Assembly (NCBI GenBank): GCA_000961745.1
Contig: LAEA01000165.1
Location: 1-32,286 of the forward strand
Length of the DNA: 32,286 bases
Source of the DNA: Rhodospirillaceae bacterium BRH_c57
GTDB lineage: Bacteria; Pseudomonadota; Alphaproteobacteria; Rhodospirillales; Rhodospirillaceae
Direction: 5' to 3'
The notes below the pieces were generated by a model that was given only the letters and a program-made list of their open reading frames with translations, ran no database searches and was not told where the DNA came from. Positions 14,004 through 24,068 of the stretch are shown one piece after another. The first letter of the stretch is position 1. The number at the start of each line of letters is the position of its first letter. The position numbers and the translations under genes were made by a program.

Positions 14004-14804
14004 TCAACCGACCAGCACGCCGGAGACGAATTTCACCCCAGGATAGGCCAGGGTCAGCACCAGATAGGCCAGCAGCACGAACCGCGCGGCGGCCCGGCCC
14101 CGCACCCCCGTGAAGTGCTTGGCGGCGAGCAGCCCGCCAATAATCACAAAGGCCAGGATGCTGAGCAGGGTCTTGTGGTCAAGGGTCAGCAACTGGCCGC
14201 TCTCCAGCCACTCGACGGCCATACCGGAAATCAGCCCCAGGCCAAGCACGACCTCGGACAGGCCCAGGAGCAGCGTGGACGTCCGCTCGGCATCGGCAAC
14301 CGATGGCAACTGGCGGGTCAGCCGGTTGGGTTGCTTGCGCTTGAGCGCCCGTTCCTGAAGGAAAGCCGCCAACGCCGACACCGCCGCCAAGGTCAGCAGC
14401 GCATAGGTCAGCACGCCCACGGTGATGTGGATGCGTACCCAGCCGGTCGGCGCAGCCTCGGCCAGCGGTGCGCCCAGGGCATGTTGCCACACCGTGGCGA
14501 TCAGCCCCAGCACCAGCAGGTATGGCGCCAGCAACGGCAGCAGCCGCCACAAGGTCGGCACCACGGCCGAACCGATGGCGAACAATAGGATGGTCGCGGC
14601 GATGCTCACCCACAAGGCCGGGGCAAGCCCGCTGACCCAGGCGCCGCCGAGGATGGCGATGCCGATGACCGCCGGCCCGACAAAGGCCAGCCCGACCGAG
14701 GCCCAGAACGCGGCATCGCGCCGCAAATCGGGCCGCAGACCGAGAATGGTCGCCGGTACCATGGTCAGAAGCGCAGTGACGCTATGAAGGAGTCCAGGAA
14801 GCAT
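14004..14804 (-). CDS. CcsA/YpjD-like cytochrome c assembly-family inner membrane protein
   Basis: A 266-residue integral membrane protein with about eight hydrophobic segments (for example 34-60, 62-80, 85-105, 128-150, 180-200, 210-228, 237-258). It resembles the CcsA/ResC/CcmC haem-handling superfamily in the small YpjD (CorE) subgroup. Histidines in membrane context are visible in WVRIHITVGVLTYAL and LDHKTLLSILAF, as expected for haem ligands. No WGxWWxWD tryptophan-rich motif is evident, which separates it from true CcmC/CcmF. Its role is not well established in the family. It is transcribed alone, divergently from ispDF. No good ribosome binding site was seen before the ATG. Confidence 0.75.
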   Translation of the reverse strand: MLPGLLHSVTALLTMVPATILGLRPDLRRDAAFWASVGLAFVGPAVIGIAILGGAWVSGLAPALWVSIAATILLFAIGSAVVPTLWRLLPLLAPYLLVLGLIATVWQHALGAPLAEAAPTGWVRIHITVGVLTYALLTLAAVSALAAFLQERALKRKQPNRLTRQLPSVADAERTSTLLLGLSEVVLGLGLISGMAVEWLESGQLLTLDHKTLLSILAFVIIGGLLAAKHFTGVRGRAAARFVLLAYLVLTLAYPGVKFVSGVLVG

Positions 14805-15006
14805 GGGCCGATCATAGCCGTTTCATCGCGAAACACAATCACCCTGCCGCAGCACAGAAGAGCGCTTAAAAATTCTATATATCGTTTATTTTCAGCGCTC
14901 TGATAAAAGTATTTTATGTCGTTTATCAACACGTCTGCGGGACTCCCTGTCCGCCGCCTGCTCTGTTAGGGTATCCGCCCTGCCCCCGGTTCATTCGAGG
15001 CTCCTC
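14805..15006. promoter_or_regulatory. AT-rich divergent intergenic region with an inverted repeat
   Basis: The 202-bp gap between the divergent CcsA-like gene and ispDF holds the most AT-rich tract of the window (about 14866-14930). The inverted repeat AGAGCGCT (14859-14866) and AGCGCTCT (14894-14901) brackets part of it, and the partial repeat TCGTTTAT occurs at 14882-14889 and TCGTTTAT again at 14919-14926. Several TATTTT and TATAT boxes could serve as -10 elements, but no pair with a convincing -35 was found. A GAGG ribosome binding site precedes the ispDF ATG. Confidence 0.5.
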
Positions 15007-22349: not shown

Positions 22350-22532
22350 TCAGACCGCTTCCGCGGCAACAACCTCACGGCCATCATAGTGACCGCAGGA
22401 CCCGCAGACATGATGCGGGCGCTTGAGTTCACCACAGTTCTTGCACTCGGCATGGGCACCGGCGCTGACGGCGTGATGCGAACGACGCATGTCACGACGC
22501 GACTTGGACACTTTCTTCTTCGGAACAGCCAT
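22350..22532 (-). CDS. rpmF: 50S ribosomal protein L32
   Basis: A 60-residue basic protein starting [20 protein letters not shown], the L32 signature. It has a zinc ribbon with C30, C33, C43 and C46 (CKNC and CGSC), so it is the zinc-binding (C+) form; no cysteine is missing. The frame is open upstream to 22703, but the ATG at 22532 is the family start. It has its own promoter candidate (TATAAT at 22576-22581) and lies between yceD and plsX as in many bacteria. Confidence 0.98.
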
Positions 22533-22575
22533 TTTTCCGCATCTCTCGGTTAGGGCGTGATCGGGAGCCAGCCTT

Positions 22576-22602
22576 ATTATACAAAAATGTAACGCACCGC
22601 AA
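22576..22602 (-). promoter_or_regulatory. Probable rpmF-plsX-fabH promoter
   Basis: A consensus TATAAT -10 box (22576-22581, minus strand) with a weaker TTGCGG -35 box (22597-22602) at 15-bp spacing. Transcription would begin near 22570, about 35-40 bp ahead of the rpmF ATG. The short spacing is a weakness; the perfect -10 in a GC-rich background is the main support. Confidence 0.5.
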
Positions 22603-22632
22603 GGCATCCCTGGAACGACGCGTAGGACTACG

Positions 22633-22772
22633 TTTACTTCCGCTTGCGCCCGGCTGCAAGCGGGGCCTTTACTTTCGCTTGCACCGCGCCGCGCACGGCG
22701 CATTTACTTCCCCTTGCGAAGCGCCGCGCACGGCGCTTTTACTTCCGCTTGCGAAGCGCTGCAAGCGCGGCA
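22633..22772. repeat. Four tandem 35-bp repeats covering the yceD stop codon
   Basis: Units begin at 22633, 22668, 22703 and 22738, each starting TTTACTT and exactly 35 bp long. The last unit contains the 3' end and TAA stop of yceD; the others extend into the yceD-rpmF gap. Units 1 and 4 resemble each other (29 of 35), as do units 2 and 3 (29 of 35). Each unit holds its own hairpin: for example CCGCTTGC/GCAAGCGG in unit 1 and GCGCCG/CGGCGC in units 2 and 3. Read on the minus strand, every unit ends in codons for Lys-Arg-Lys or Lys-Gly-Lys plus TAA. Confidence 0.85.
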
Positions 22773-23266
22773 AAAGGACTTGCCGAAGCGGGATCTTCAT
22801 CGGGCGGCGGCTGGAACTCGGCTCCAGGCGCGCGCGGAAACGGATTGATGGCCAACGCGAACTGCTCAGCCACAACTTCACCGACGTCGATCACCCCCTC
22901 CACGATGGGTTCAGGGGGGTCCTCGGCTTCGGCATCCAGTTCGACTTCCACGGCGTCGGGGACCGGCGGCGCGAAGGTGAAGACCATCTCAAAGTCGCTG
23001 GTCACATCCGAATGCACCGGCACCAGGGTCACGCCGCAGGTCTGGGTGACGCGGGCGGTCAGGTGGCCGGTCAGGCGCACCAGCTCGCCACGGGCAAACG
23101 GCTTGGCGTGCACCTTGGCTTCCAGGGCTTCGACGGCATCCAGGCCGAACCGCTTGGCGAGCGCGGCACGCTCCATGGCATCGGCCTCGATCATGAGGTG
23201 GCGCCCCTCGTTGGGCAGGCGTTCCACCGGAAGCGGGCGTGGAAATTCGGGTGTGATATCGGTCAT
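22739..23266 (-). CDS. yceD: YceD/DUF177 family protein, probable 23S rRNA accumulation factor
   Basis: A 175-residue acidic protein of the DUF177/YceD family, which lies next to rpmF in most bacteria and has been linked to 23S rRNA maturation. Typical features are the C-x-R/Q-C-like strand VTQTCGVTLVPV (about 82-93), the acidic stretch around 110-120, and VIDVGEVVAEQFALAINPFPRAPG (about 124-147). The C-terminal end FAALAALRKRK lies in the last unit of a 35-bp tandem array and may have been shaped by it. The ATG overlaps the stop of the upstream chaperone gene (ATGA). Confidence 0.9.
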   Translation of the reverse strand: MTDITPEFPRPLPVERLPNEGRHLMIEADAMERAALAKRFGLDAVEALEAKVHAKPFARGELVRLTGHLTARVTQTCGVTLVPVHSDVTSDFEMVFTFAPPVPDAVEVELDAEAEDPPEPIVEGVIDVGEVVAEQFALAINPFPRAPGAEFQPPPDEDPASASPFAALAALRKRK

Positions 23267-24003: not shown

Positions 24004-24068
24004 GTCCCGCTTCGGGACCCGTAGAATGTCCCGTTCCGGGACTCGTTGACAATGTCCCGTTGCGGGAC
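24004..24068. promoter_or_regulatory. Three GTCCCG-N3-CGGGAC palindromes upstream of bamE
   Basis: Perfect 15-bp dyads lie at 24004-24018, 24028-24042 and 24054-24068, with identical 6-bp arms and variable centres (CTT, TTC, TTG). Centres are 24 and 26 bp apart. They sit in the 265-bp divergent region between the bc1 chaperone gene (minus) and bamE (plus), ending 20 bp before the bamE ATG. TATAAA (23979-23984) and TAGAAT (24022-24027) are possible -10 boxes close by, but no good -35 was found. Repeated operator sites are the likeliest reading. Confidence 0.65.

Follow-up and report, generated by a model that had tools for sequence, protein, structure and literature searches.

Tandem repeats that carry stop codons have been described in the Beggiatoaceae, where intergenic TAACTGA direct repeats lie head to tail and sometimes extend over the end of the upstream gene (PMC4679880). 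Template switching, which leaves a reverse-complement footprint, has been proposed as a process that creates hairpins (PMC8794818). A literature search for bacterial tandem duplications spanning a stop codon revealed no direct precedent among the papers listed. Here, we describe an array that copies the 3' end of yceD, located in a 32,286-nt stretch of DNA from Rhodospirillaceae bacterium BRH_c57 (the window). The array is real and most likely stems from an ordinary copying accident in this lineage, in which a hairpin-forming gene end was repeated in tandem. It adds an example to a known class, and nothing points to a new type of element.

Structure of the yceD array

The array comprises four 35-nt units on the minus strand, which are aligned in exact register and extend from the end of yceD into the gap preceding rpmF. 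The features of the locus, from yceD to rpmF, are:

22739-23266, minus strand: yceD (large rRNA accumulation protein, DUF177; Pfam PF02620, E 1.4e-14)
22739-22773, minus strand: unit 1 (U1, type A), the final 35 nt of yceD, TAA included; hairpin CGCTTGC/GCAAGCG
22704-22738, minus strand: unit 2 (U2, type B); hairpin AAGCGCCG/CGGCGCTT, with a left arm reverse-complementary to the right
22669-22703, minus strand: unit 3 (U3, type B); hairpin GCGCCG/CGGCGC; starts with ATG in the rpmF frame
22634-22668, minus strand: unit 4 (U4, type A); hairpin CCGCTTGC/GCAAGCGG; identical to unit 1 at positions 21-35
22576-22603, minus strand: rpmF promoter-like motif, CTTGCG - 16 nt - TATAAT, recognised by conservation; downstream of the array
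22350-22532, minus strand: rpmF (ribosomal protein L32; Pfam PF01783, E 3.1e-27)

U1 encodes the C-terminus of YceD (...PFAALAALRKRK*), and U2 to U4 (22634-22738) occupy part of the yceD-rpmF gap. All units terminate in AAG-(CGG/GGG/CGA)-AAG-TAA, with the consensus GCAAG-SGR-AAGTAA present in all four. The segment GCAAGSGRAAGTAA is near-constant from U1 to U4, while the left halves vary. U1 and U4 share 28 of 35 positions and U2 and U3 share 29, with the remaining pairs identical at 24-26 of 35. TRF located the array at 22633-22753 with a period of 35 and a score of 144, whereas 1000 dinucleotide-shuffled versions of the 1 kb around it scored 69 at most. The locus thus displays head-to-tail copies of one unit, above chance and within the size range of minisatellite units (~10-60 bp). 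Unit alignment, TRF and the shuffles uphold the first-pass annotation in its description of four exact-period units that copy the 3' end of yceD, each closing with Lys-Arg/Gly-Lys codons and TAA. The same annotation distinguished two unit types, pairing 1 with 4 and 2 with 3, and this grouping agrees with the alignment; the types do not alternate as it had proposed, as their order along the array is A-B-B-A. Its statement that extra units never lie in frame applies to one or two units and fails for the three that are present, which amount to 105 nt, a multiple of three, leaving the frame beyond the yceD stop open to the TAA of U4.

The source assembly (3.9 Mb) is fragmented, with 274 contigs and a completeness of 81.7%, and tandem repeats are prone to misassembly. 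An assembly artefact is nevertheless barely credible, as the units have diverged enough to be distinguishable and their total of 140 nt should fit within a short-read pair.

The junction of U2 and U3 creates AAGGGGAAGTAAATG, in which an ATG preceded by a purine-rich stretch lies in frame with rpmF (22350-22703, minus strand). The resulting open frame of 117 amino acids would lengthen L32 at its N-terminus. This ATG is probably incidental.

Distribution in the genome and among relatives

The genome search proposed in the first-pass annotation, where wide dispersal of the unit was held to speak for a common repeat, recovered neither the array nor the unit end at any other place in the 3.9-Mb assembly (81.7% complete). 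Genome-wide, two-mismatch matches to the unit end were not above a reversed-pattern control. Exact matches to the type-B hairpin in the assembly fell only within the array, and no plasmid-borne copies were found. A dispersed intergenic repeat of the REP, RPE or DUS type is ruled out by the lack of copies at other sites of the assembly.

Other tandem arrays occur in this genome. In a 346-kb sample, TRF revealed several of unrelated sequence, with 26-40-bp units, that apparently lie outside genes, as judged from open frames only. They include a 40 bp x 5.4 array (GCCGACGCTGGGCTGTCGTCACGGGGGTGGTGTTGTCTCC) at 14713-14930 of locus L102 and an array with 33/66 bp units at 2557-2860 of L105. Units of 33 bp with the sequence GCTCCCA occur at three places (L105 2557-2860, L105 16219-16312 and L103 5834-5914), and these arrays possibly form one dispersed family. 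Within the window, a 26 bp x 2.6 array whose units contain TCCCG...CGGGA inverted repeats is located at 24004-24068, upstream of a bamE-like gene. The yceD array is one more short tandem array of this genome, notable only for the stop codon in its first unit.

Of 72 further genomes compared from the family, 60 contain yceD homologues, which are 30-54% identical. The yceD-rpmF gaps of 80 relatives from the same family and order were compared with that of the window, 81 in all, and the 35-bp array was not found in the gap of any of the 80 relatives. Their gaps measure 78-240 nt (median 112), and the gap of the window measures 206 nt. Smaller private duplications were observed in the gaps of individual relatives: L080 (16 bp) and L083 contain duplications around the CTTGC box, and L093 presents one of 22 bp downstream of it.

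Upstream of rpmF, a CTTGC box with a TA-rich box after it was scored in the gaps of the window and of loci L003-L031 and L047-L101. Across the order, this pair occurs in 73 of 81 gaps, compared with 2.0 expected in shuffles. The spacing between the two boxes is near constant, with 72 of 78 scored sites sharing one value. From its conservation and position, we read this motif as a putative rpmF promoter. The distance from the yceD stop codon to CTTGC is 3-80 nt (median 16) in relatives and 135 nt in the window; subtraction of the 105 nt of the three extra units leaves 30 nt, which is within the family range of 3-80. Therefore, three units were inserted between the yceD stop codon and the motif, and the motif itself was left untouched.

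The location of the motif bears on the proposal, made in the first-pass annotation, that the array functions as a contingency (VNTR) locus, with switches in unit number altering the YceD tail or the expression of rpmF. That annotation foresaw that loss or gain of a unit would leave yceD closed by TAA, and this holds true, as every unit displays TAA in the same register, so that the gene would remain closed at any unit number. However, stop-codon preservation is a property of any tandem duplication that includes the stop codon. In addition, frequent slippage is disfavoured by the 6-11 differences per 35 positions between units, unequal exchange would mostly restore a nearly identical tail (KRK or KGK), and rpmF has a conserved promoter-like motif of its own downstream of the array. 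A contingency locus is thus highly improbable.

Hairpins and folding of the array

When folded alone, the units form hairpins with 7 (U1), 8 (U2), 6 (U3) and 8 (U4) Watson-Crick pairs, using two different stems. The minimum free energy (MFE) fold of the whole stretch, in contrast, pairs U2 with U3. The earlier view that each unit carries its own hairpin is therefore valid for isolated units, but not in the sense that the hairpins are independent. Fold z-scores against dinucleotide shuffles were -1.7 for the sense and -1.6 for the antisense strand; the stability is only weakly greater than that of the shuffles, which speaks against a strongly selected fold. In U4, the seven changes relative to U1 are all located outside the type-A stem.

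A search for intrinsic terminators, defined by a GC-rich hairpin with a T-run after it on the coding strand, identified no site on the minus strand, and the array hairpins lack a U-run after them on the sense strand. Two terminator-like sites were detected on the plus strand, at 22638-22665 and 22686-22701, where 1.3 +/- 1.3 are expected by chance. No Rfam family reached its gathering score. The best of three matches was Scr3202 (25.8 bits versus a gathering score of 52), and the other two were microRNA models, also below gathering; a known RNA family is consequently ruled out.

The array could act at the 3' end of the yceD mRNA as an RNA element under selection, with hairpins that would stabilise this end or separate the transcript from rpmF transcription. 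The presence of a hairpin in every unit alone, albeit with two different stems, and the sparing of the type-A stem by all seven U4 changes are in line with such a role. The absence of a sense-strand U-run, the modest z-scores on both strands, the lack of an Rfam family at gathering score and the little room available in relatives, where a median of 16 nt separates stop codon and motif, all argue against it, and we consider it unlikely. A variant in which a gene-end duplication has since turned into a working 3' RNA element, the template-switch hairpins setting the end or stability of the yceD transcript ahead of a separately promoted rpmF, is quite unlikely. Alternatively, the plus-strand hairpins, followed by TTTACTT or TTTTACTT, might act as terminators of antisense transcription that proceeds from rpmF toward yceD. 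The two plus-strand sites fit this arrangement, but they are no more numerous than expected by chance, their T-runs are short and broken up, and an antisense promoter would also be required; we regard antisense termination as very unlikely.

The suggestion that the array is a special element that varies the hairpin count ahead of rpmF is likewise unsupported, as the putative rpmF promoter lies downstream and no terminator-like site exists on the sense strand. Transcripts initiated at this promoter would exclude the array, because the motif is located downstream of it. A regulatory role for the array is conceivable, but nothing supports it.

Proposed origin of the array

The array is likely to be a lineage-specific minisatellite that arose by slippage duplication of the hairpin-forming end of yceD, acquired its type-B units by template switching and has no selected function. 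We consider U1 the ancestral copy: many relatives share the FAALAAL-like motif encoded by its left half, from which U4 retains GCTTGCAGC. The 35-nt 3' end of yceD, comprising the stop codon as well as a 7-bp inverted repeat, would have been duplicated in tandem into the spacer upstream of the putative rpmF promoter, with slippage of replication at the hairpin as the probable cause. The duplication would have been tolerated because each copy brings its own TAA and the rpmF promoter-like motif stayed intact.

The differences between U2 and U1 point to the next step. Eight of the nine lie within positions 1-14, and AAGCGC at positions 1-6 of U2 is the exact reverse complement of positions 15-20 of U1, giving a perfect 8-bp stem. 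In a post hoc test involving few units, so long a stem appeared in 0.9% of random U1 mutants with nine changes and in 0.17% when the same positions were changed. U2 thus displays a clustered change identical to a nearby segment in reverse complement, as expected of a template switch. A short switch of this kind may have replaced the left arm of one copy by a reverse-complement copy of its right arm, generating the type-B hairpin, and the type-B copy would then have been duplicated, U2 giving rise to U3. The array most likely remained without a selected function. The near-constant GCAAGSGRAAGTAA and the stem-sparing changes of U4 may be signs of selection on structure, or else of recent homogenisation. 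The genome of the window is the sole member of its genus (g1) among the 73 family genomes compared, and a single genome per genus gives no measure of the age or the neutrality of the array.

Discussion

The yceD array provides a compact natural example of a gene end copied in tandem together with its stop codon, and it may also exemplify a template switch that creates a new hairpin in a single step. If the units did affect transcripts, they would represent an RNA element born from a coding end. The comparison also revealed a promoter-like motif before rpmF that is conserved across the order.

Among known systems, bacterial minisatellites and the VNTR loci used in MLVA typing share with this array head-to-tail units of tens of bp that are partly diverged, confined to one site and built from local sequence. 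They differ in that the first unit of the yceD array is the coding end of a gene with its stop codon. A stop codon within a tandem repeat and an overlap with a gene end are common to the array and to the Beggiatoaceae TAACTGA repeats, although the latter are 7-bp units at many loci, whereas the yceD array has a 35-bp, gene-derived unit at one locus (PMC4679880). Template-switch (quasipalindrome) mutations present the same clustered change, which turns one arm into an exact reverse-complement copy of the other; here, however, the change is observed between tandem units of one genome rather than between ancestor and descendant (PMC8794818, PMC7202029).
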